A stretch of DNA of 64,000 nucleotides, from assembly GCF_007859765.1 (NCBI RefSeq), contig NZ_SIHJ01000001.1, forward strand, positions 3,885,156 through 3,949,155, in the 5' to 3' direction. The notes beneath the pieces were generated by a model. The model saw only the letters and a list, made by a program, of their open reading frames with translations, was not told the DNA's origin and did not search any database. Of the stretch, positions 2 to 48,946 are shown piece after piece. Origin of the DNA: Posidoniimonas corsicana (GTDB taxonomy: Bacteria; Planctomycetota; Planctomycetia; Pirellulales; Lacipirellulaceae). A program made the translations under genes and the position numbers. How positions within the stretch are numbered: position 1 is the stretch's first letter; each line of letters starts with the position of its first letter.

Positions 2-1054
2 GTCGCCGAGCGGGGCGACGACCTCGCCAACGCCAAGGCCAAGGAGCTCAGCATCCCGAAGGGGTACGGCGACTACCACGACCTGCTGGCCGACCCCGAT
101 GTGCAGGTTGTGCACAACTGCACGCCCAACCACCTCCACTTCCAGGTGAACAAGGAGATCATGGCGGCGGGCAAGCACGTCGTCAGCGAGAAGCCCCTGG
201 CGATGGACTCGGCCGAGTCCCGCGAGCTGGTCAAGCTCGCCAAGGAGGCGGGCGTGGTCAACGCGATCAACTTCAACTACCGCTACAACCCGCTGGTGCA
301 GCAGGCCCGGGCGATGTGTGCGGGCGACGACGTCGGGCGGGTGCTCGCCGTGCAGGGCAGCTACCTGCAGGACTGGCTCCTGGAAGAGACCGACTGGAAC
401 TGGCGGCTGGTGCCCGAGATGTCGGGCAAGTCGCGGGCGGTGGCGGACATCGGGTCGCACCTGTGCGACATCGTGCAGTTTGTCACGGGGCTGAAGATCG
501 TCCGCGTCATGGCCGACCTGCAGACCATCCACCCCACGCGCAAGAAGCCGAAGAAGGAGGTCGCTACCTACAGCGGCCAAGAGCTGCGTCCCGAGGATCT
601 GGAGGACGTGGCGATCGACACGGAGGACTACGGCTCGATCCTGGTGGAGTTCGACTCCGGCGCGCACGGGGTGATGACCGTCAACCAGTGCGCCGCCGGT
701 CGGAAGAACCGGTTGTTCTACGAGATCGACGGCGCCAAGTGCGCATTGGCGTGGGACCAGGAACGCCCGAACGAGCTGTGGATCGGCCGCCGCGGCCAGG
801 CGAACCAGGTGATGATGAAGGACGCCAGCCTGATGCACGCCGCCGCCCAGGAGTACGCCCACTACCCCGGCGGCCACAACGAGGCGTACCCCGACGCGCC
901 CAAGAACCTGTTCCGCAACGTCTACGGGTTCATTGCGGGGAATCGCCCCGGCGGCGACTTCGCCACCTTCGTTGACGGCCACAACGAGATCGCCATCTGC
1001 GACGCCGTGCTGGCAAGCAACGACAAGAAGCAGTGGGTAGACGTCGATTATTAG
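2..1054 (+). CDS. Gfo/Idh/MocA-family NAD(P)-dependent oxidoreductase, 5' end cut off
   Basis: The reading frame is open from base 2, so the start and the N-terminal Rossmann glycine motif lie outside the window. What remains is the end of the nucleotide-binding domain, including the NCTPNHLH and EKPLAM stretches; the EKP lysine is typical of the family. The C-terminal alpha/beta substrate domain follows, with the GSHLCDIVQFVTG motif around base 455. The long middle part (QELRPEDLEDVAIDTEDYG) and the GGHNEAYPD tail match the sugar-dehydrogenase-like members common in planctomycetes. The substrate cannot be named; a sugar or inositol derivative oxidised at a ring hydroxyl is usual for the family. 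Confidence 0.9.
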   Translation, partial: VAERGDDLANAKAKELSIPKGYGDYHDLLADPDVQVVHNCTPNHLHFQVNKEIMAAGKHVVSEKPLAMDSAESRELVKLAKEAGVVNAINFNYRYNPLVQQARAMCAGDDVGRVLAVQGSYLQDWLLEETDWNWRLVPEMSGKSRAVADIGSHLCDIVQFVTGLKIVRVMADLQTIHPTRKKPKKEVATYSGQELRPEDLEDVAIDTEDYGSILVEFDSGAHGVMTVNQCAAGRKNRLFYEIDGAKCALAWDQERPNELWIGRRGQANQVMMKDASLMHAAAQEYAHYPGGHNEAYPDAPKNLFRNVYGFIAGNRPGGDFATFVDGHNEIAICDAVLASNDKKQWVDVDY

Positions 1055-41039: not shown

Positions 41040-41261
41040 TCGCAGTGCGCCAGCGGGTGCCCTGCCCGTAAAACCGGCCCCGTGGGTCCTCTTGCGGCCT
41101 GTAGTAATGGCGCCGGTTTTGACGATAATGGACGTCAGGCATTCTCAGCCAGCCGCCCGCAGCCGCGGAAGCCGCGACGTGGTTAGCTAGGATTGAACGA
41201 GGGCCCGCGCGTTGGCGGCCCTGGATTCCGTGTGTGTTTCTACGAGAGGATGGGAAGCAAA

Positions 41262-41726
41262 ATGATGATCCGAACTCGCATGCTGACCCTCGCCGCTGTC
41301 GGACTGATGGGCGTCGCGGCGAGCACCCACGCTCAGCCCACGCCCGCCGAGGAGCAGGCGCTGCCCGCCGCCCCCACGGCCGAGGCGCCGAGCATCGTCG
41401 AATACGCCGAGCCGGCCGCGCCCGCCATCGAGTGCTGCCCGATCGGGGTGGTCCGCGAGGTGGCGACCCTGTCGGCCAAGAAGAAGTACCGCTGCTACGG
41501 CGCGCCGATCAAGCAGGTGCTGTGCGTCGACAACCCGGCCGACTGCTACTGCAAGCACTTCGCGGTGCCGGTGTGCGTGCCGAGCTGCTGCACCGGCGAG
41601 CCGGTCTGCTGCGACTCCCGCTCCGGCCTGCTGGGCCGCGGCTACGTCACCTACCGCTGGCCCTGCGGCTTCGAGGCGACCATCGCCTTCCGCGTCCACG
41701 GCGGCGTGATCATCACGTACCGCTGA
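41262..41726 (+). CDS. Secreted cysteine-rich protein of unknown function
   Basis: About 154 residues from ATG 41262 (an ATG at 41250 is also possible). A signal peptide (MMIRTRMLTLAAVGLMGVAASTHAQ) leads to a Pro/Ala/Glu stretch and then a domain with twelve cysteines in about 65 residues, several in CC or CYC pairs (IECCPIG, DCYCKHF, VPSCCTGEPVCCDS). The tail (FEATIAFRVHGGVIITYR) is a beta hairpin in character. I do not recognise the family. Disulfides in the periplasm or metal binding are possible. Confidence 0.75.
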   Translation: MMIRTRMLTLAAVGLMGVAASTHAQPTPAEEQALPAAPTAEAPSIVEYAEPAAPAIECCPIGVVREVATLSAKKKYRCYGAPIKQVLCVDNPADCYCKHFAVPVCVPSCCTGEPVCCDSRSGLLGRGYVTYRWPCGFEATIAFRVHGGVIITYR

Positions 41727-41813: not shown

Positions 41814-43400
41814 TTACTCGGCCTGCTTGCCGACCATCGAGTCGAGCATGGTGCCGATCAGGGCGGTGGTCTCGGCGGACTGGGCGCCGCCCTCACCGCC
41901 GACCACCATCACCCGCGGCGTCACGGTGATGTTGTTCTCGCCGACCACCTTCAGCACCTCGACCAGGGCCGCGTTGCCCTTGCCGATCTGCTCGGCAATC
42001 AGCTGGTAGGCGTTGGCCTGGGCCTCGGCCTTGATGCGCACCGCCTCGGCGTCGGCGCCGGCCTCGATGATCTTCCGCTCCTTCTCCTGCTCGGAGATCT
42101 GCACGCCGTACTTGGCGGTCGCCAGGCGTTTCTCTTCCTCGGCCTCCTGCTCGGTGCGGGTCAGCTCCTTCTGCTGCTCGGCGGCGCGCTGCTGCTCCTG
42201 GATGGTCTCCTGCTCCTGGATCGCGATCTCGCGTTTGGTCTGGGTCTCGAGGAGCGGGCCGAGGGTCTTCTCGTCGCCCACGTCGCCGATCCGCACCGCG
42301 GTGACCGTGGCGCCAATCTTGGTCATCTCGTCCTGCAGCATCTTCAGCGACTGGCTCTCCTGCTGAGAGCGCTGCTGCACGTAGTCCAGCGCCTTCACCC
42401 CCTCGGCGTTGTTGCGGAAAATGGCCCGCACGGCCGAGTTCATCACGCTCCGCAGCCCGTCTTTGTCGTCGCCGACGGTGGCGACCAGGAGCGGCGCGCT
42501 GTCGGGCTCAATCTCGTACTCCACCCTCACGTCCACGGGGAAGGTGAAGCCGTCCGACGTGCGGACGATGATCTCGCTCTCCTCGTGGATCCCCGAGCCG
42601 GCCACGGTGGCGTCGGTGTACCGGACCACCTGCTTGCGGGTGGAGATCTCCGTGACCTCGAACGCGTCGGTGTTCAGGTAGTACTGCCCCGGCTTGAGCG
42701 GCTCGCGCCAGATGCCGCGCTGGCCCTTCGACACCAGCCGCGCCAGGCGGCCGGTCTGCCGGTTGCCCTCGTCGTCGGTCGGCGGCGCCGGCCGGTCGCC
42801 GACGTTGGACTTCACCACGCCCACGGTCGCTTTGGCGATGGTGGTGATGTCCGCCTGGACAACTTCAAACAGCTTGGTGTTGACTCGGTAGGAGGCCGGC
42901 CGCAGCACGGTGGTCTGCGGGCCCTTGTAGCCATCGCCGGTGGTGAGGAAGTACTCGGCGTCGGTCATGCGGCCCTCGACCTCCTCGGCCCACTCGGGCG
43001 CGTAGGTGGTGTCGGGCGGCAGGGGGCGGCCGTCACGGGCGTTGATGATGCCGACCTTGCCGGCCGGGATCTGCACCAGGCCCTCTTCTTCGATGTCGTA
43101 CACGCCGGGCCAGTACCACAGGTGCCAGCCGGGCGGCAGCACCTCGGCCTGGGGGCCCATCTCGCCGTTGGTGGCGATGATCTTGCCGGGCGGTAGGGCC
43201 GCGACGCCGAACCGCTTGGTCACCATGCCGGCCGCGTCCTCCGGCACGTACCGGAACGACGCCAGCGTGAAGCCAATGGCCAGGGCCACCAGCGCCAGCC
43301 CGAACGCGCCGAACCGCAGGTCGGCCCGGGGCGCCTTCACGCCGCCCACCACCAGCATAATGGCCAGGGCGATACCGCCGATGAGGAAGATTGCCGACAT
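41814..43400 (-). CDS. SPFH/Band 7 (flotillin-like) membrane protein
   Basis: 528 residues. Two N-terminal transmembrane helices (about 4-20 and 30-47) are followed by a Band 7 domain (EDAAGMVTKRFGVAALPPGKIIA ... SDGFTFPVDVRVEYEIEPDSAP) with an insert of some 150 residues, then a long Glu/Gln/Ala-rich coiled coil (QTKREIAIQEQETIQEQQRAAEQQKELTRTEQEAEEEKRLA) and a short hydrophobic end. Such proteins oligomerise in membrane microdomains. AAGG upstream is consistent with the ATG at 43400. No NfeD partner lies next to it. Confidence 0.88.
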   Translation of the reverse strand: MSAIFLIGGIALAIMLVVGGVKAPRADLRFGAFGLALVALAIGFTLASFRYVPEDAAGMVTKRFGVAALPPGKIIATNGEMGPQAEVLPPGWHLWYWPGVYDIEEEGLVQIPAGKVGIINARDGRPLPPDTTYAPEWAEEVEGRMTDAEYFLTTGDGYKGPQTTVLRPASYRVNTKLFEVVQADITTIAKATVGVVKSNVGDRPAPPTDDEGNRQTGRLARLVSKGQRGIWREPLKPGQYYLNTDAFEVTEISTRKQVVRYTDATVAGSGIHEESEIIVRTSDGFTFPVDVRVEYEIEPDSAPLLVATVGDDKDGLRSVMNSAVRAIFRNNAEGVKALDYVQQRSQQESQSLKMLQDEMTKIGATVTAVRIGDVGDEKTLGPLLETQTKREIAIQEQETIQEQQRAAEQQKELTRTEQEAEEEKRLATAKYGVQISEQEKERKIIEAGADAEAVRIKAEAQANAYQLIAEQIGKGNAALVEVLKVVGENNITVTPRVMVVGGEGGAQSAETTALIGTMLDSMVGKQAE

Positions 43401-43555: not shown

Positions 43556-43584
43556 TTGACAGCCCCGCCGGGGCGGGGTAGCCT
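43556..43584 (+). promoter_or_regulatory. Candidate promoter of the cimA leader
   Basis: TTGACA (43556-43561), a 17-bp spacer that is itself a GC palindrome (GCCCCGCCGGGGCGGGG), then TAGCCT (43579-43584), which keeps the three most conserved -10 bases. Transcription would begin near 43591, 32 bases before the leader peptide. A second TTGACA at 43585 has no fitting -10. Confidence 0.5.
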
Positions 43585-43622
43585 TTGACAAACGCCATCC
43601 AACCTCTGGAACCGGAACAGCC

Positions 43623-43691
43623 GTGCCCCCCGCCGCCCCACAGCCGACGATTGTCGGGATTATTGTGATTACCCAGGAGCAGCGGCCTTAG
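43623..43691 (+). CDS. Leader peptide of the cimA attenuator, Ile/Val-rich
   Basis: A 22-codon frame from GTG (GGAA five bases upstream) to TAG. Its core reads TIVGIIVIT, encoded ACG ATT GTC GGG ATT ATT GTG ATT ACC, so four of nine codons are isoleucine and all four are ATT, whereas neighbouring genes nearly always use ATC. The stop codon lies within the antiterminator segment. The next gene makes citramalate for isoleucine synthesis, so ribosome stalling at these codons when charged tRNA-Ile is scarce would be meaningful. No homology evidence was available. Confidence 0.65.
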   Translation: MPPAAPQPTIVGIIVITQEQRP

Positions 43692-43734
43692 GGCGGTTTG
43701 GCGGATAACGTTACAATCCACAGCCCCAAGGCCG
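43683..43734 (+). promoter_or_regulatory. Antiterminator pairing of the cimA attenuator
   Basis: CGGCCTTAGGG (43683-43693) can pair with CCCCAAGGCCG (43724-43734) at 10 of 11 positions. The second segment is also the left arm of the terminator, so the two structures exclude each other. CCGCCC (43633-43638) can in turn pair with GGGCGG (43691-43696), giving the classic segment 1:2 pause hairpin. Confidence 0.65.
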
Positions 43735-43756
43735 AAAACGGTCTTGGGGTTTTTTT
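43724..43756 (+). terminator. Intrinsic terminator of the cimA attenuator
   Basis: CCCCAAGGCCG, loop AAAA, CGGTCTTGGGG: an 11-bp stem with a single G-U pair, followed by seven T residues. It begins 33 bases after the leader-peptide stop and 78 bases before the cimA ATG; no larger gene precedes it on this strand, so it terminates the leader itself. Confidence 0.9.
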
Positions 43757-43767
43757 ATTGGCTTTCG

Positions 43768-43833
43768 GCTGTCGGCTATTGGCTGTCGGCCTTACCGAAG
43801 CCAGCCATCAGCCGACAGCCAACAGCCGATAGC
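43768..43833. repeat. 23-bp inverted repeat ending at the cimA start codon
   Basis: Arms 43768-43790 and 43811-43833 (GCTGTCGGCTATTGGC... against its complement) match at 21 of 23 positions, one mismatch being a G-U in RNA. The loop is 20 bases. The right arm ends one base before the ATG, leaving no ribosome-binding sequence, so translation may depend on structure. The same CGGCTGT words stand next to the argF start. Confidence 0.7.
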
Positions 43834-43834
43834 T

Positions 43835-45409
43835 ATGCAACGCATCGAAATCTACGACACCACCCTCCGCGACGGCGCCCAGGGCGAGGGCGTGAACTTC
43901 TCGCTGGACGACAAGGTGCTCATCGCCCGGCGGCTGGACGAGGTGGGGGTCGACTTCATCGAGGGGGGCTACCCGCTCTCCAACCCCAAGGACGCCGAGT
44001 TCTTCCAGCGCATCGCGGCCGAGCCGCTCGCCAACAGCCAGGTGTGCGCGTTCGGCATGACCCGCCGCCGCGGCATGACGCCGGCCGAGGACCCGGGCAT
44101 GAAGTCGCTGATGGACTCCCAGGCGCCGGTGATCACCATCGTCGGCAAGACCAGCGCGTTCCACGTCGAGGAGGTGCTGCGGGTCAGCGAGCAGGAGAAC
44201 ATCGACATGATCGCCGAGACCATCGCCTACTTCGTGGGCGAGGGCCGTCGGGTGATCTACGACGCCGAGCACTGCTTCGACGGGCTGAAGCTCAACGAGG
44301 AGTACGGCCTCAAGACGCTCAAGGCCGCCGCCGACGCCGGCGCGATGCGGATCGTCATGTGCGACACCAACGGCGGCACGATGCCCGAGGAGATCGCCCG
44401 CTATGTGAATCTGGTGGCCGGGGCGGTCGACAAGCCGGTCGGCATCCACACGCACAACGACTGCGAGCTGGCGGTGGCCAACAGCCTGGCCGGCGTCGAC
44501 GCCGGCGCCACGCACGTGCAGGGCACCATCAACGGCTTCGGCGAGCGGTGCGGCAACGCCGACCTGATCAGTGTGATGGCCAACCTGGCGCTCAAGAAGC
44601 AGGGCTACGAAGTCTTGGGGGGCGCCCAAACGGACCACCTGACCGAGTTGTCGCGCTACGTGTACGAGATCGCCAACATGGGCTACCGCACCAGCCAGCC
44701 GTTCGTGGGCGCCAGCGCGTTCGCCCACAAGGGCGGCATGCACGTGCACGCCGTGAACCGCGTGGCGCACAGCTACGAGCACATCCCGCCGGAGAGCGTC
44801 GGCAACGAGCGGCGGGTGCTGGTGAGCGAGCTGTCGGGCCGCTCCAACATCCTGGCAATGGCGACCAAGCTCAACCTGCAGGAGGACAAGGAGCTGATGG
44901 ACCGCATCCTGCGGGAGGTGGTCGAGCTGGAGAACCAGGGCTACCAGTTCGAGGCGGCCGAGGCGTCGTTCGCGCTGCTGGTGCAGCGGATCGCCGGCAC
45001 GTTCGCGCCGCACTTCGAGCTGGTGAAGTACCACGCGTCGACCGAGAGCCGCGGCGGCTCGCCACTCACCGAGGCGACCGTCAAGCTGCTGGTCGACGAC
45101 GAGGTACAGCACCGCGTGGCCGAGGGCGACGGCCCCATCAACGCGCTGGACGGCGCGCTCCGCAAGGCGCTAAAGGGTCGCTTCCCGGCGCTCCAGCAGA
45201 TGCAGCTGGTCGACTACAAGGTCCGCGTGATCAACAGCGAGGCCGCCACCGCGGCCAGTGTCCGCGTGATCATCGAGTCCCGCGACGCCGACGGCGAAAC
45301 CTGGGGCACCGTGGGCGTGAACGAGAACATCATCCAAGCCAGCTGGGACGCCCTGGTCGACAGCTTCGAGTACAAGCTGGCCAAGGAAAGCCGGGCGGCT
45401 GGCGGCTAG
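43835..45409 (+). CDS. cimA: Citramalate synthase (2-isopropylmalate synthase family)
   Basis: 524 residues. The DRE-TIM barrel begins IEIYDTTLRDGAQGEGVNFS and shows GVDFIEGGYPLSNPKD, the HTHNDCELAVANSL metal site and GTINGFGERCGNADL. The C-terminal regulatory domain is present (GPINALDGALRKALKGRFPALQQMQLVDYKVRVINSEAATAASVRV). GYPLSNPKD and the length are those of the CimA branch that condenses pyruvate and acetyl-CoA to citramalate, the threonine-independent route to isoleucine. The ATG lacks a Shine-Dalgarno word and stands against a large inverted repeat. An attenuator-like leader precedes it. Confidence 0.93.
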   Translation: MQRIEIYDTTLRDGAQGEGVNFSLDDKVLIARRLDEVGVDFIEGGYPLSNPKDAEFFQRIAAEPLANSQVCAFGMTRRRGMTPAEDPGMKSLMDSQAPVITIVGKTSAFHVEEVLRVSEQENIDMIAETIAYFVGEGRRVIYDAEHCFDGLKLNEEYGLKTLKAAADAGAMRIVMCDTNGGTMPEEIARYVNLVAGAVDKPVGIHTHNDCELAVANSLAGVDAGATHVQGTINGFGERCGNADLISVMANLALKKQGYEVLGGAQTDHLTELSRYVYEIANMGYRTSQPFVGASAFAHKGGMHVHAVNRVAHSYEHIPPESVGNERRVLVSELSGRSNILAMATKLNLQEDKELMDRILREVVELENQGYQFEAAEASFALLVQRIAGTFAPHFELVKYHASTESRGGSPLTEATVKLLVDDEVQHRVAEGDGPINALDGALRKALKGRFPALQQMQLVDYKVRVINSEAATAASVRVIIESRDADGETWGTVGVNENIIQASWDALVDSFEYKLAKESRAAGG

Positions 45410-45766
45410 TCGAAGCCGTTAGGTATGGAACCACAAAGGGCACAAAGGACACCAAGACGAGGCTCTTCGCGGCCCCACTTGGTGTCCTTCGTGGTGAAAA
45501 CGCCCCCGGCACCCGCGCAACCACAAAGTCACAAGGCACTGATTCACAGAGTAGTACGCCTGCTGCTTTGTGCCTTCGTGCCTTCGTGCCTTTGTGGTTA
45601 GTCCCTTCCCCGCCAGCCGGACAGTCGCGCCCCGGCGAACCAATGTGATCTCCGTGCCCTCTGTGGTGAAAGCCGGCCGCTTGGCGGCGCCCTCGCCCAG
45701 GCCCGGGCAATCCTGGTATCCTGTCCGTTTTCCTGAGCCCGTCATCTCGCCCGTAATCTGCGTCCC
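45410..45766. repeat. Cluster of ACCACAAAGGCAC-type inverted repeats
   Basis: 357 bases without a gene. ACAAAGGACACCAAG (45442-45456) faces its near-complement at 45478-45492 (14 of 15). AACCACAAAG (45519-45528) faces CTTTGTGGTT (45590-45599) perfectly, with GTGCCTTCG tandemly repeated inside the right arm. A third, poorer copy (CCTCTGTGGTGAAAG) is near 45659. This looks like several nested copies of one miniature repeat. Confidence 0.65.
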
Positions 45767-48700
45767 ATGCCAGCCTTCGACCCCGCCAGCCTCCCCGCCC
45801 AGTACGATCACCAGGCCGCCCAGGACAAGTGGTACGCCTACTGGGACGACAAGCAGTACTTCCACGCGGACCCGGCCAGCGACAAGCCGCCGTTCTCGGT
45901 GGTGATCCCGCCGCCCAACGTGACCGGCGCTCTGCACCTGGGGCACGCGCTCAACAACACGCTGCAGGACATCCTCTGCCGCATGCGCCGCATGCAGGGC
46001 TACGAGGTGCTGTGGATGCCCGGCACCGACCACGCCGGCATCGCCACCCAGGCGGTGGTCGAGCGGCGGCTGCTGCAGGAGGAGGGCAAGAGCCGGCACG
46101 ACCTGGGCCGCGAGGGGCTCATCGACCGCATCTGGCAGTGGAAGGAGCAGTACGAGAAGCGGATCACCGGCCAGCTCAAGCAGCTCGGCGCCAGCTGCGA
46201 CTGGGCCCGGCAGTGCTTCACGCTCGACAAGAAACGAGGGCGGGCCGTCAGAGAGACATTTATAAGGCTTTTTTCAGACCCTAATGGGCGCAAGATCTAC
46301 CGCGGCAAGCGGCTGGTGAACTGGGACACGTTCCTGCAGACCGCCGTCAGCGACGACGAGGTGTTCCACGAGGAGGTCAAGGGCCACTTCTGGCACTTCA
46401 AGTATCCGGTGAAGCCTGAGGATCGGAAGCCGGGCGAACCAGAGTTCGTCACGATCGCCACCACGCGGCCGGAGACCATGCTCGGCGACACCGCCGTGGC
46501 TGTGCACCCGGACCCGGCCATGCAGCTCGACAAGGTCGAGGCCGAGTTGAAGGAGAAGCTGGCCGCGGCGCCCGCCAAGGAGAAGCCGCCGATCGAAGCT
46601 CAGCTTGAGGCCCTCGCCGAGCGGCGCGAGTCGAAGCTGCCGCAGCTCGAGCAGCTCCGCGACATGGCCGCCCGCGGCGTGATGCTCAAGCTGCCGCTGA
46701 CCGGTCGCCAGATTCCGCTGATCGCTGACGAGTGGGCCAAGCCCGAGCTCGGCTCTGGCTGCGTGAAGATCACCCCCGCGCACGACGCCAACGACTACGA
46801 GGTGTGGCAGCGCAGTATTTCTGGGGAGGGGCAGTCGATCGGCGCGATCAACATCATGACCACCGAAGGCAAGCTGAACGACAGCGTGCCCCAGAAGTAC
46901 CGCGGCCTGACGATGAAGGACGCGCGGAAGGCGGTGGTCGAGGACCTCACCGAGCTCGGCCTGCACGACCCGGAGACCGACCGCGAGGACCGCGTCATCG
47001 ACCTCGCCCACAGCGACCGCAGCAAGACGCCGATCGAACCGTACCTGGCCGATCAATGGTTTGTAGAGATGGGAAGCCTTGCACAATCTGCGATTGACGC
47101 GCTAGATCAAGATTGCGAACCCGAGGACAAGCTACACTTCCGAATCAGTCCGTCCCGTTATGCCAAAGGGTATGTCGACTGGCTCGCCGAGAAGAGAGAT
47201 TGGCCGGTTGGTCGACAATTGTGGTGGGGACACCGGATCCCAATCTGGTCAGTGACAAAGGAACGGTACGAAGAACGCGGGTTGCCATGGAAGGGCATTG
47301 AGCAAGTCCTAGACTTACTTTCAAAACATCACAATGACGTTCAGATGTCTTGGGACTACCAGGGAGATCGCGTCTTAGTATGTGCATCGGATGATCCAAC
47401 GTCCCCTAACGCTCGCATACTAACTAGCGCGCTGGAAAATGAGTTTGGTTTCGCAAGAGAGGAGGAAGTCCTCGACACCTGGTTCTCCAGCGCCCTGTGG
47501 CCTTACTCCACCATGGGCTGGCCCGAGGAGACCGACCTCCTCAAAAAGTTCTACCCGACCAGCGTGCTGATCACCTCGCGGGACATCCTCACGCTGTGGG
47601 TGGCGCGGATGGTGTTGACGGGCCTATACAACGTCGGCGAGATCCCATTCCACCAGGTGTTTATCCACCCGAAGATCCTCGATGGCTTCGGCGAGACGAT
47701 GTCCAAGTCGAAGGGCAACGGCGTCGACCCGCTGGACGTGATCGACAAGTTCGGCGCCGACGCGCTGCGGTTCGGCATCGCGTACCTCACCACCGAGACG
47801 CAGGACGTCCGCATGCCGGTGGAGTTTGTCTGCCCGCACTGCGACGCCACGATCAAGCAGACCAAGAAGAACCGCGTGCAGCCGCGGGTGAAGTGCGACA
47901 AGTGCGGCGGGGAGTTCCGCACGCAGTGGGCCGAGAAGGAAGAGGACCTGGCGCTCGAGCGCGGCGCTGTGACCAGTGAGAAGTTCGAGCTCGGCCGCAA
48001 CTTCTGCAACAAGCTGTGGAACGCGTCGCGCTTCGCGCTCACCAACCTCCAAGGCTACGAGCCGGGAGCTTCAGCTCCCGGAGAGCTCAAGATCGAGGAC
48101 CGCTGGCTCCTCAGCCGCCTGGCCACGGTCACCCAGAAGGTTACCGAAGCCCTGGACGAGTTCCGCTACGCCGACGCCGCCCGCGAGCTGTACGACTTCG
48201 CCTGGAACGAGTTCTGCAGCTTCTACGTCGAGATGACCAAGGCCCGTTTCGCCAAAGAGGGCCCGGACAAGCAGGTGGCTCAGCGGGTGCTGGCCCACGC
48301 GCTCGACCGGCTGCTGCGGCTGCTGCACCCGATGACGCCGTTCCTGACCGAAGAGGTCTGGCAACTGCTCGGTCGGTTGGCGCCCGAGCGGGGCCTGCCG
48401 ACGCCGGCCACGGCGGAGGAGTCGGTCTGCATCGCGGCGTGGCCCGAGGCGAACACGGCCGACGTCGACGCGACCATCGAGGAGCAGTTCGCCAAGTTCC
48501 AGGCGGTGCTGGGCGCGGTGCGCGAGGTGCGGCAGGGGCAGAACGTGCCGTTCAAGGAGGAGCTGGAGTTCGTGGTCCGCTGCGACGAGGCTTCGGCCGC
48601 GTTGATCGAGCCGATGCAGCCCTACTTCGCCAAGATGGCCAACGCCCGACTGACCGCGATCGGCCCCGACCCGGCCGAGCCCGACATGCCCGCCAGCAAG

Positions 48701-48946
48701 ACCGCCGCCGGCATGGAGGTGCTGGTCGACGTGAGCCGGTTCATCGATGTCGAAGCCGAGAAGACGCGGCTGACGAAGGAGCGGGACAACCTGGCCAAGT
48801 TCACCAAGAGCCTGGAAGGGAAACTCAAGAACGAGAAGTTCGTGAGCAACGCGCCGGCCGAGGTGGTCGAGCAGGAACGCACCAAGCTGGCCGACGCGCA
48901 GGCGCAGCTCGAAGTGGTCGAGAAGGCGCTGAAGAAGCTCGGCTAG
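45767..48946 (+). CDS. valS: Valine--tRNA ligase, long form with zinc-ribbon insert
   Basis: 1059 residues, about 100 more than usual. HIGH motif as NVTGALHLGHALN; editing domain VTIATTRPETMLGDTAVAVHPD followed by a charged insert (KVEAELKEKLAAAPAKEKPPIEAQ); KMSKS as GETMSKSKGNGVDPLD; then an inserted ribbon FVCPHC-N15-VKCDKCGG; the anticodon domain; and a C-terminal coiled coil (FIDVEAEKTRLTKERDNLAKFTKSLEGKL). Bases 47057-47466, and shorter runs near 46229-46292, use AT-rich codons (TTA, CTA, AGA, ATA) foreign to the rest. A perfect palindrome near 48061 adds Pro-Gly-Ala-Ser-Ala-Pro-Gly. Confidence 0.96.
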   Translation: MPAFDPASLPAQYDHQAAQDKWYAYWDDKQYFHADPASDKPPFSVVIPPPNVTGALHLGHALNNTLQDILCRMRRMQGYEVLWMPGTDHAGIATQAVVERRLLQEEGKSRHDLGREGLIDRIWQWKEQYEKRITGQLKQLGASCDWARQCFTLDKKRGRAVRETFIRLFSDPNGRKIYRGKRLVNWDTFLQTAVSDDEVFHEEVKGHFWHFKYPVKPEDRKPGEPEFVTIATTRPETMLGDTAVAVHPDPAMQLDKVEAELKEKLAAAPAKEKPPIEAQLEALAERRESKLPQLEQLRDMAARGVMLKLPLTGRQIPLIADEWAKPELGSGCVKITPAHDANDYEVWQRSISGEGQSIGAINIMTTEGKLNDSVPQKYRGLTMKDARKAVVEDLTELGLHDPETDREDRVIDLAHSDRSKTPIEPYLADQWFVEMGSLAQSAIDALDQDCEPEDKLHFRISPSRYAKGYVDWLAEKRDWPVGRQLWWGHRIPIWSVTKERYEERGLPWKGIEQVLDLLSKHHNDVQMSWDYQGDRVLVCASDDPTSPNARILTSALENEFGFAREEEVLDTWFSSALWPYSTMGWPEETDLLKKFYPTSVLITSRDILTLWVARMVLTGLYNVGEIPFHQVFIHPKILDGFGETMSKSKGNGVDPLDVIDKFGADALRFGIAYLTTETQDVRMPVEFVCPHCDATIKQTKKNRVQPRVKCDKCGGEFRTQWAEKEEDLALERGAVTSEKFELGRNFCNKLWNASRFALTNLQGYEPGASAPGELKIEDRWLLSRLATVTQKVTEALDEFRYADAARELYDFAWNEFCSFYVEMTKARFAKEGPDKQVAQRVLAHALDRLLRLLHPMTPFLTEEVWQLLGRLAPERGLPTPATAEESVCIAAWPEANTADVDATIEEQFAKFQAVLGAVREVRQGQNVPFKEELEFVVRCDEASAALIEPMQPYFAKMANARLTAIGPDPAEPDMPASKTAAGMEVLVDVSRFIDVEAEKTRLTKERDNLAKFTKSLEGKLKNEKFVSNAPAEVVEQERTKLADAQAQLEVVEKALKKLG
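48061..48081. repeat. Palindrome inside valS
   Basis: CCGGGAGCT, two bases, AGCTCCCGG: a perfect 9-bp inverted repeat lying in frame within valS, between the catalytic core and the anticodon-binding domain. It encodes PGASAPG. It resembles an intergenic repeat that landed in a tolerant loop. Confidence 0.55.

Follow-up and report, generated by a model that had tools for sequence, protein, structure and literature searches.

An isoleucine-codon leader upstream of cimA in Planctomycetota, predicted to act as a transcription attenuator, and its leucine and aromatic counterparts

RESULTS

The window analysed, a 64,000 nt stretch of DNA from Posidoniimonas corsicana, contains the citramalate synthase gene cimA, with which isoleucine synthesis begins, preceded by a short leader region. 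The assignment of cimA rests on an equivalog model, TIGR00977, matched above its cut-off, and on the presence of the LeuA allosteric domain (PF08502) in its product. The gene upstream of the leader is divergent, while that downstream of cimA codes for valyl-tRNA synthetase (valS; Table 1). An inspection of 80 loci (L001–L080) found valS 3′ of cimA and in the same strand in 61 of them; the gap between the two genes was shorter than 300 nt in 43 of these 61, and was free of terminators in 59. It is possible that valS is carried on the cimA transcript; there are no co-transcription data.

Table 1. Coordinates of the leader parts and genes discussed in the text (positions within the window).
Feature	Position	Strand	Basis
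Promoter-like pair, TTGACA (43556-43561), 17 nt, TAGCCT (43579-43584)	43556..43584	+	Sequence
Leader frame MPPAAPQPTIVGIIVITQEQRP, 22 codons, GTG start, stop TAG (43689-43691)	43623..43691	+	Sequence; relatives Ile-enriched
Stall codons ATT GTC GGG ATT ATT GTG ATT (four Ile, two Val)	43650..43670	+	Sequence
Segment 2 CGGCCTTAGGG, overlaps the stop codon; partner of segment 3 (antiterminator)	43683..43693	+	Fold and duplex tests
Segment 3 CCCCAAGGCCG, partner of either segment 2 or segment 4	43724..43734	+	Sequence and folds
Segment 4 CGGTCTTGGGG	43739..43749	+	Sequence
Intrinsic terminator, segments 3:4, 13 pairs, T7 at 43750-43756	43722..43756	+	Mechanical terminator search
cimA, citramalate synthase, regulated gene	43835..45409	+	TIGR00977, 633.5 bits (cut-off 450)
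valS, valyl-tRNA synthetase	45767..48946	+	NF004349/TIGR00422

The original prediction, made from the window alone, was that of a peptide-leader attenuator assembled from these parts. On re-reading, the GTG-initiated frame proved exact to the base, with an ATT at each of its four Ile codons (43650, 43659, 43662 and 43668). Segment 2 does lie over the stop codon and can form 10 of 11 pairs with segment 3, and the mechanical search recovered the stem of segments 3 and 4 with its T run. The proposed promoter held only in part: the pair of motifs is present, and 44 of 54 relatives have the pattern TTGAC-(15..19)-TAnnnT before their leader (1% of shuffled sequences), but a generic sigma-70 scan of the window returned no promoter at the scan cut-off. 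A transcript start near 43591 is inferred.

A terminator was present in 71 of 94 planctomycete cimA upstream regions. When the most Ile-rich short frame was picked in each region, 61 of these 71 contained a frame with at least three Ile codons among its last 20, compared to 4% of shuffled controls. In 54 of the 71, a short frame ended inside segment 2 or within a few bases of it. The conservation of both the Ile codons and the stop position, which the prediction had called for, was therefore found. For the 54 leaders with the stop in segment 2, whose frame was chosen without regard to Ile content, Ile accounted for 25.3% of the last 15 codons, or 3.8 codons per leader, compared to 0.13 and 0.20 when the other two frames were read and 0.58 after shuffling. 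This stop-based rule mis-picked one leader (L083, which has a longer overlapping frame) and missed the Ile frames of four others (L021, L025, L028 and L044); the count was therefore redone with the most-Ile-rich-frame rule. ATT made up 74% of the Ile codons in leaders but 22% in cimA (Fisher p = 5e-49, with rows that are not independent), and 12 of 154 Ile codons across five genes of the window's genome. The distance from stop to terminator was 28–46 nt in 49 of 53 leaders. In the nearest relative, from the same genus, the core GIIVIT reads GIIAIT; one Val is altered and the three core Ile codons are retained. The first Ile of the window's frame (codon 10) has no match there.

Leaders retaining the terminator without the Ile frame had been named as a pattern that would refute the prediction. 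This pattern does occur, in 10 of the 71 regions, against the 61 that have the frame. The ten comprised one clear case of decay (L011), three Val-rich leaders (AQGVRV type), two regions of Phycisphaerales type, two that are the end of a longer gene, and two unrelated regions. Further, 13 of the 36 assessable genomes of the family had no leader before cimA. In view of these two counts the cimA leader is labile, yet not refuted.

The 30 nt around the stop codon formed a duplex with the 5′ arm of the terminator at −17.7 kcal/mol, compared to −11.05 (SD 0.39) for shuffled sequences and about −8 kcal/mol elsewhere in the leader (51 of the 54 leaders; three with fewer than two Ile were left out). 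Segments 2 and 3 matched better within than between genomes (0 of 20,000 permutations reached the observed value), and did so within Pirellulales alone (p = 0.002); within Planctomycetales, own pairs were no better than permuted ones (p = 0.28). In 23 Pirellulales leaders the 2:3 helix was conserved, with 82% of cells paired, although its column covariation did not exceed that of shuffles; the case for this helix therefore rests on conservation and the duplex permutation test. The alternative pairing is thus upheld by the matching of segments within genomes and not by covariation. The 3:4 terminator helix did covary in the same 23 leaders, its score being reached by 0 of 500 shuffles.

Both states of the leader were then folded for 57 leaders, with frames picked by Ile content, an assumed ribosome footprint of 14 nt and, where available, stall codons lying 21 nt or more ahead of the stop. 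With the ribosome stalled, segment 3 paired upstream before segment 4 existed in 57 of 57 leaders (−26.2 kcal/mol for the stalled-state fold of the window's leader), while with the ribosome at the stop codon it paired with segment 4. Distances and folds together indicate that a ribosome at the stop covers segment 2 and that a stalled one leaves it free. The antiterminator pairing is exclusive with the terminator, with the caveat that Pirellulales lack column covariation. In the presence of segment 4, the stalled state had the terminator as its minimum-energy fold in 48 of 57 leaders; the switch must therefore be kinetic. A further pairing, of a segment 1 with segment 2, had been proposed as a 'protector'. 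It exists in the sequence, but was no stronger than chance: −27.5 in the window compared to −27.7 for shuffled upstream sequence, with a mean z of −0.45 over the 57 leaders, 22 of which lay below z −1. A base-paired protector is unsupported, and is unnecessary for the mechanism.

Leaders of the same design were found before two other genes. Poly-Leu frames preceded leuA in 34 of 35 loci of the family, and Phe/Tyr/Trp frames preceded the gene for DAHP synthase in 27 of 30 loci (an example of the run is YFWFSFT). In a test that involved no choice of frame, the z for codon enrichment was 27.8 for Ile at cimA, 23.8 for Leu at leuA and 24.2 for aromatics at DAHP synthase; before ilvB it was never above 3.7. 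Leu made up 48% of the leuA leaders and 2.3% of the cimA leaders, and Ile 0.2% and 25%, respectively. The little-used codon CTA made up 36% of leader Leu compared to 1% in leuA. With frames picked by content, at least five Leu codons were present in 48 of 53 terminator regions (2.1% in shuffles), and at least six aromatic codons among the last 30 in 26 of 28 DAHP synthase leaders (1.8% in shuffles). The rule of a stop inside segment 2 was satisfied in 2 of these 28, since segment 2 sits in their last codons.

The regions before ilvB, hisG and trpE were first searched as possible positives; leaders were absent and they hence served as controls. No leader was found upstream of ilvB in 30 loci, where two weak terminator calls (L198 and L201) had no leader frame. 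Scanning from the match start detected no terminator before hisG in 29 loci (L223 being too short) or before trpE in 30. With Ile, Leu and aromatic runs before the matching genes and none at these controls, the codon run, judged by sequence, is tracking the pathway end product. Such switching of codons is a stronger check than those put forward with the original prediction.

The DNA pattern of segments 2 and 3 gave 45 matches in the window's own genome, compared to 27 for the reversed pattern; among the matches listed, the only recognised leaders were those of cimA and leuA. All the strong matches to a covariance model (R1) that could be placed were cimA or leuA leaders (some on short contigs were left unplaced), and weaker ones pointed to DAHP synthase. 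Of the other weak matches inspected, three (L340, L345 and L350) resemble gene ends and one (L344) shows no leader. At gathering score, Rfam returned no match in the window and two tRNAs only in 20 loci, with no match to the T-box model in either; there were four sub-threshold matches.

DISCUSSION

The region before cimA is, with high confidence, a ribosome-mediated transcription attenuator responding to charged tRNA-Ile; tRNA-Val is probably sensed as well. No experiment backs this prediction, which is supported by conservation and the gene-specific codon runs; these were observed, as were the parts and the predicted folds of both states, while frame translation, stalling, read-through and its response to tRNA charging are inferred. 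Since relatives share the design, and have leucine and aromatic versions before the matching genes, it resembles a switch that senses supply. Transcription would start near 43591, and a ribosome would begin on the leader frame. With ample charged tRNA-Ile (and probably tRNA-Val), the ribosome would reach the TAG and cover segment 2, segments 3 and 4 would pair, and the RNA polymerase would halt at the U run before cimA. When charged tRNA-Ile is scarce, the ribosome would wait at an ATT codon and leave segment 2 free. Segment 2 would then capture segment 3 ahead of the synthesis of segment 4, and the polymerase would read through into cimA and, possibly, valS.

Leader-frame attenuation might respond to some other signal, for instance to a free metabolite that acts on the nascent peptide, or to translation slowing down in general. 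A subgroup of five leaders (L056, L059, L062, L064 and L068) has a sequence-conserved AQGVRV frame with few Ile codons, which speaks for this reading, but most clades retain the codon run alone, and the Leu and aromatic versions at leuA and DAHP synthase favour amino-acid-specific stalling, leaving this alternative very improbable. It is very improbable that the frame codes for a functional small hydrophobic (membrane) peptide that has a promoter and a terminator to itself and stands before cimA without a regulatory role. The frames are indeed hydrophobic, being rich in Ile, Val, Leu or aromatic residues. However, the type of residue follows the downstream pathway, synonymous codons are skewed to ATT and CTA, the stop codon is tied to an RNA element, the peptides diverge widely outside the codon run (by eye), and in the window's peptide the run is followed by Q, E, Q and R.

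It can hardly be credited that the terminator merely marks an ordinary 3′-end, or that the region is a riboswitch or T-box. A terminator exists, as it would before a gene controlled by either of these elements, and in L093 and L099 that before cimA follows a longer gene. In the window, however, the upstream gene is divergent, so the terminator is not that gene's end; apart from two tRNAs in the 20 loci scanned, Rfam yielded sub-threshold matches only, and the frame signal would be left unexplained.

The literature search found no description of such leaders for Planctomycetota, in line with the original prediction, which knew of none for planctomycete cimA. The mechanism is already known; the phylum, the target and the three-way set appear new. 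On this evidence, classical attenuation extends to a phylum for which no earlier report was found, and the codon runs of three parallel leaders spell out the pathway specificity. This suggests a logic by which Planctomycetota may regulate amino-acid synthesis. We lean, with some reserve, towards the view that these three attenuators control the committed enzymes for Ile/Val, Leu and aromatics in this phylum (cimA with valS, leuA and DAHP synthase), and that their presence in Gemmatales (e.g. Zavarzinella formosa) would mean that those transcripts are translated while being made. The switch needs a translating ribosome no more than a few dozen bases away from the polymerase, so leaders in Gemmatales would imply co-transcriptional translation, at least of these transcripts; transcription and translation are reportedly spatially segregated in this order. 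The leaders thus offer a clean handle on transcription-translation coupling in bacteria with a disputed cell plan: a starvation response from a Leu or Ile leader in a Gemmata relative would mean that transcription and translation are coupled in that organism.

The trp, his, leu and ilv leaders of enterobacteria combine a run of end-product codons with mutually exclusive 2:3 and 3:4 hairpins and a terminator; the leu leader uses rare CUA codons. The 1:2 protector hairpin is a trp-type feature and is not taken here as defining the class. The planctomycete leader is alike in its codon run within a short frame, its 2:3 and 3:4 alternatives, and its terminator before a biosynthetic gene. It differs in its phylum, its target (cimA), the stop inside segment 2 and the lack of a 1:2 pairing above chance.

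The Corynebacterium ilvB-II uORF (PMC10272879, as described in PMC11109978) is similarly rich in Ile, Leu and Val codons and has a terminator with an antiterminator complement (PMC11109978); it controls ilvBNC in one actinobacterial genus, whereas planctomycetes have the leader at cimA and none at ilvB (30 loci). A 2010 paper that describes a case from Firmicutes was aware of no earlier leader-peptide system beyond Proteobacteria and Actinobacteria (PMC2965389). That case, the His leader of hisS/hisZ, has a leader peptide with a codon stretch and a terminator (PMC2965389), and differs from the cimA leader in amino acid and gene. A uORF with a terminator is also described for uORFC-13-1 (aroF, Acholeplasma) and uORFC-8-2 (cysS, Rhodobacterales), of which the former precedes DAHP synthase and contains one or more Phe codons (PMC8632094). 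These belong to other phyla; the planctomycete DAHP synthase leaders have runs like YFWFSFT and form part of a set that also includes versions for Ile and Leu.

Organization of the region upstream of cimA

The interval between the Band_7 gene and cimA (the citramalate synthase gene) spans 434 bases and contains, in this order, a promoter-like pair, a GTG-initiated frame and an intrinsic terminator (see table). Since the Band_7 gene is divergent, the terminator would act on a cimA-directed transcript. The leader frame reads MPPAAPQPTIVGIIVITQEQRP; as noted earlier, all four of its Ile codons are ATT, which makes up 12 of 154 Ile codons in five genes of this genome. The reported pairing of segment 2 (43683-43693) with segment 3 (43724-43734) was likewise confirmed: CGGCCTTAGGG contains the stop codon, and 10 of its 11 bases can pair with the terminator's 5′ arm. 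The loop between these segments (43709-43721) carries a GGTACAATCC-like motif kept in several relatives, and by eye, without a count, the two sides of a small inner stem in this loop seem to change together (GACC/GGT, GAGC/GCT). An imperfect inverted repeat lies between the terminator and the cimA start (43765-43833); with up to one mismatch allowed, 19 bases from one arm match the genome six times, at four sites of which this is one.

Features of the cimA leader region and location of the leuA and DAHP synthase loci
Feature	Position or loci	Strand	Basis or remarks
Band_7 gene	41814-43400	minus	PF01145; divergent from cimA
Promoter-like pair TTGACA-17-TAGCCT	43556-43584	+	Sequence
GTG leader frame, 22 codons	43623-43691	+	Sequence
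Intrinsic terminator	43722-43756	+	Sequence and terminator scan
cimA	43835-45409	+	TIGR00977, 633.5 bits (cut-off 450)
leuA loci	L142-L171, L269-L273, L381-L466		Poly-Leu leader with little-used CTA codons
DAHP synthase locus, window genome	L353, C2:330851-331861		Family loci L351-L380

The two states of the switch were modelled with an assumed ribosome footprint of 14 nt, starting at the first A-site nucleotide. With the ribosome on an Ile codon, segment 2 was predicted to be exposed and the RNA up to segment 3 to form the 2:3 antiterminator (-26.2 kcal/mol); with the ribosome at the stop codon, segment 2 would be covered and the terminator would fold. The model returned the stalled-state antiterminator and the stop-state terminator for 57 of 57 leaders each, the frames having been picked by Ile content. 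When segment 4 (43739-43749) was present, the minimum-energy fold in the stalled state was the terminator in 48 of the 57, indicating that the decision must fall before segment 4 is copied.

Conservation of the cimA leader

A protein search identified 80 cimA loci among titled genome records, including Pirellulales, Planctomycetaceae, Gemmataceae and Singulisphaera, the closest being that of Aeoliella straminimaris (77%; genus Aeoliella, Lacipirellulaceae, Pirellulales); within the family, 38 of 43 genomes had matches. After dropping 15 duplicates and one too-short region, 94 upstream regions remained; in 71 of these a terminator lies no more than 800 nt from cimA. The Ile codons proved to be conserved: 61 of these 71 terminators, compared with 4% of shuffled sequences, were preceded by a short frame that stops 5-80 nt ahead of the terminator and has at least three Ile in its last 20 codons. 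The pattern that would have refuted the prediction, a terminator without such a frame, was thus confined to the other ten. Three of these are of a Val-rich AQGVRV type (L059, L062, L064), two are Phycisphaerales-type (L075, L076), two look unrelated (L018, L061), and the remainder are L011, L093 and L099.

The position of the stop was also maintained: a short frame, chosen blind to amino acids, had its stop in or adjoining segment 2 in 54 of the 71 regions. The last 15 codons of these 54 leaders held a mean of 3.80 Ile, and 49 leaders had at least two; the corresponding means were 0.58 for shuffled sequences and 0.13 and 0.20 for the alternative frames. ATT made up 152 of 205 leader Ile codons but 22% of the Ile codons of cimA itself at these loci. 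Val was elevated as well (1.93 per 15 codons, versus 0.43 in the other frames and 1.17 when shuffled). In a separate phylum-wide sample (157 genomes searched, 57 with cimA, 29 new loci examined), Ile frames were present at 10 of the 29 loci, including three listed in the same phylum but not the same class (L285, L290, L295); no terminator was found at 15 of the 29.

By reading, the 38 family genomes with cimA comprised 23 with the leader, 13 without it (G001, G002, G004, G007-G012, G015, G022, G023 and G040) and two that could not be assessed (G013, G024). The weakest positives were G033, in which 27 codons include three Ile, and G031, in which a small contig of its own carries the leader together with the 5′ end of cimA. 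A gene of 648-674 codons separates the leader from cimA in G027 and G029, where the two are about 2 kb apart. G015 (L011/L109) retained the terminator and lost the frame. G007 and G010 (L099, L093) have a terminator, but the frame preceding it forms the last part of a longer gene. At these last two loci a homologue, recognized by eye, of the Cys-rich protein at 41193-41726 of the window stops directly before the terminator; its natural C-terminus is itself Ile/Val-rich.

Several loci showed further peculiarities. In L001 (PF05635 by scan) and in L003, L004, L015 and L343 (by eye), the terminator of the leader is separated from cimA by a gene for a four-helix 23S rRNA-intervening-sequence protein, which looks like an insertion; another large gene occupies this place in L337 and L338. 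Five cimA leaders (L056, L059, L062, L064, L068) share, by eye, a nearly invariant GCGCAGGGAGTGCG (peptide AQGVR), with the potential for a small hairpin whose loop is GGGAG; a further layer is possible, for instance an arrest peptide or a protein site. Upstream of cimA in L075-L079 (Phycisphaerales-type), inspection by eye revealed a terminator and, between GTGCGGACAG ... CTGTCCGCGC, a conserved long-range pairing; Ile codons are few there, and the element may be a regulatory RNA of another type.

Covariation had been proposed as a check on both stems. In 23 Pirellulales leaders the terminator helix passed it (0 of 500 shuffles reached its score); the 2:3 helix did not, being 82% paired with covariation no higher than in column shuffles. 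A duplex test spoke more in its favour: the stop region paired with its own terminator arm at -18.1 kcal/mol and with that of another genome at -15.7 (0 of 20,000 permutations). Within groups defined by cimA identity, the result was p=0.002 for Pirellulales (26 leaders) and p=0.013 for a low-identity group (8 leaders); in a Planctomycetales-like group (23 leaders) own pairing was no better than permuted (p=0.28). Common descent, not pairing alone, contributes to the between-clade part of this signal.

Leaders of leuA and DAHP synthase

A covariance model spanning segment 2 to the terminator, run on the 43 family genomes, gave strong matches mainly at cimA and leuA leaders, with a weaker third site before DAHP synthase (NCBIfam NF006421). 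The second cimA homologue of the window genome is LeuA, and its leader frame reads MSSQTLQTLLLLELAPSGS. The family has 36 leuA matches, and the upstream region was examined for 35 of them; 34 had a terminator, always with a Leu-rich frame (31 by rule, three by reading), and neither was found in the 513 nt of upstream sequence of L148. Over the last 15 codons of the 31 leaders, the share of Leu was 48% and that of Ile 0.2%; CTA supplied 36% of Leu codons versus 1% in leuA. Class-wide, 53 of 86 leuA regions had a terminator and 48 combined it with a frame of at least five Leu codons (shuffles, 2.1%); the leader was patchy in two families (4/26 and 9/20).

DAHP synthase sequences at least 70% identical occurred at 39 places, 30 of which were examined as loci; paralogues of about 50% identity, also present in the window genome, were excluded. 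A terminator lay within 500 nt in 28 of the 30, and 27 had a frame with a Phe/Tyr/Trp run (YFWFSFT-type), MSGKYWQFFWFSFTGFFYGNLGAGGCA in the window genome. Here segment 2 falls within the last codons, not over the stop.

For each of 14 residue classes, a frame-free test recorded the highest count reached, relative to shuffles, within any 10 consecutive codons free of stops ahead of the terminator. Ile stood out for cimA (z 27.8; next, Val 6.6), Leu for leuA (23.8; next 6.3) and aromatics for DAHP synthase (24.2; next 6.6); no class exceeded 3.7 for ilvB. The comparison was limited to these four genes, hisG and trpE. The 30 ilvB loci had no leader, only two weak terminator calls without a frame, and neither terminators nor such leaders were found at hisG (29 loci scanned) or trpE (30 loci).

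The cimA leader as a probable attenuator

Pathway-matched codons, a shift to less-used synonymous codons, a stop held near segment 2 and a terminator ahead of the gene together make up the pattern that attenuation predicts. A small-protein gene, a riboswitch or a stray terminator would not predict this combination. We are highly confident that the cimA leader exists as a ribosome-mediated attenuator.

Its reach may extend beyond cimA. The order cimA-valS is found again across the phylum: in 61 of 80 loci (L001-L080; some of the others are cut short) valS lies 3′ of cimA on the same strand, at less than 300 nt in 43 of the 61 and without an intervening terminator in 59. In the window the gap is 357 nt (45410-45766), again without a terminator; by eye it contains imperfect inverted repeats of ACCACAAAG...-type sequence. 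Since valS mostly adjoins cimA in this way, the switch may also set valyl-tRNA synthetase, co-transcription being inferred; such control would fit the Val codons of the leader.

The planctomycete cell plan matters here, since leader-peptide attenuation requires that a ribosome be at work on RNA still being transcribed. Two papers cite work by Gottshall et al. in this connection, and for the order Gemmatales a spatial separation of transcription from translation has been reported. In Zavarzinella formosa (Gemmatales, Gemmataceae; L065) the cimA terminator is preceded by a frame rich in Ile and Val. This leader leads to the inference that transcription and translation are coupled, which is testable and is no proof.

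Comparison with Rfam 15 assigned the cimA leader to no family, and no description of planctomycete leader peptides or attenuation was recognized in the CC-licensed PMC literature, the only scope within which 'not described' applies. PMC4833913 counts leader genes near genes in Planctomycetes and makes no mention of isoleucine. According to PMC2965389, leader peptides were known in 2010 from Proteobacteria and Actinobacteria, plus its own Firmicutes cases, and uORF attenuators have been reported in other phyla (PMC8632094, PMC11109978; 'planctomyc-' is absent from their main text). The kind of mechanism is already known; what appear to be new are the phylum, the target and the three-way set.
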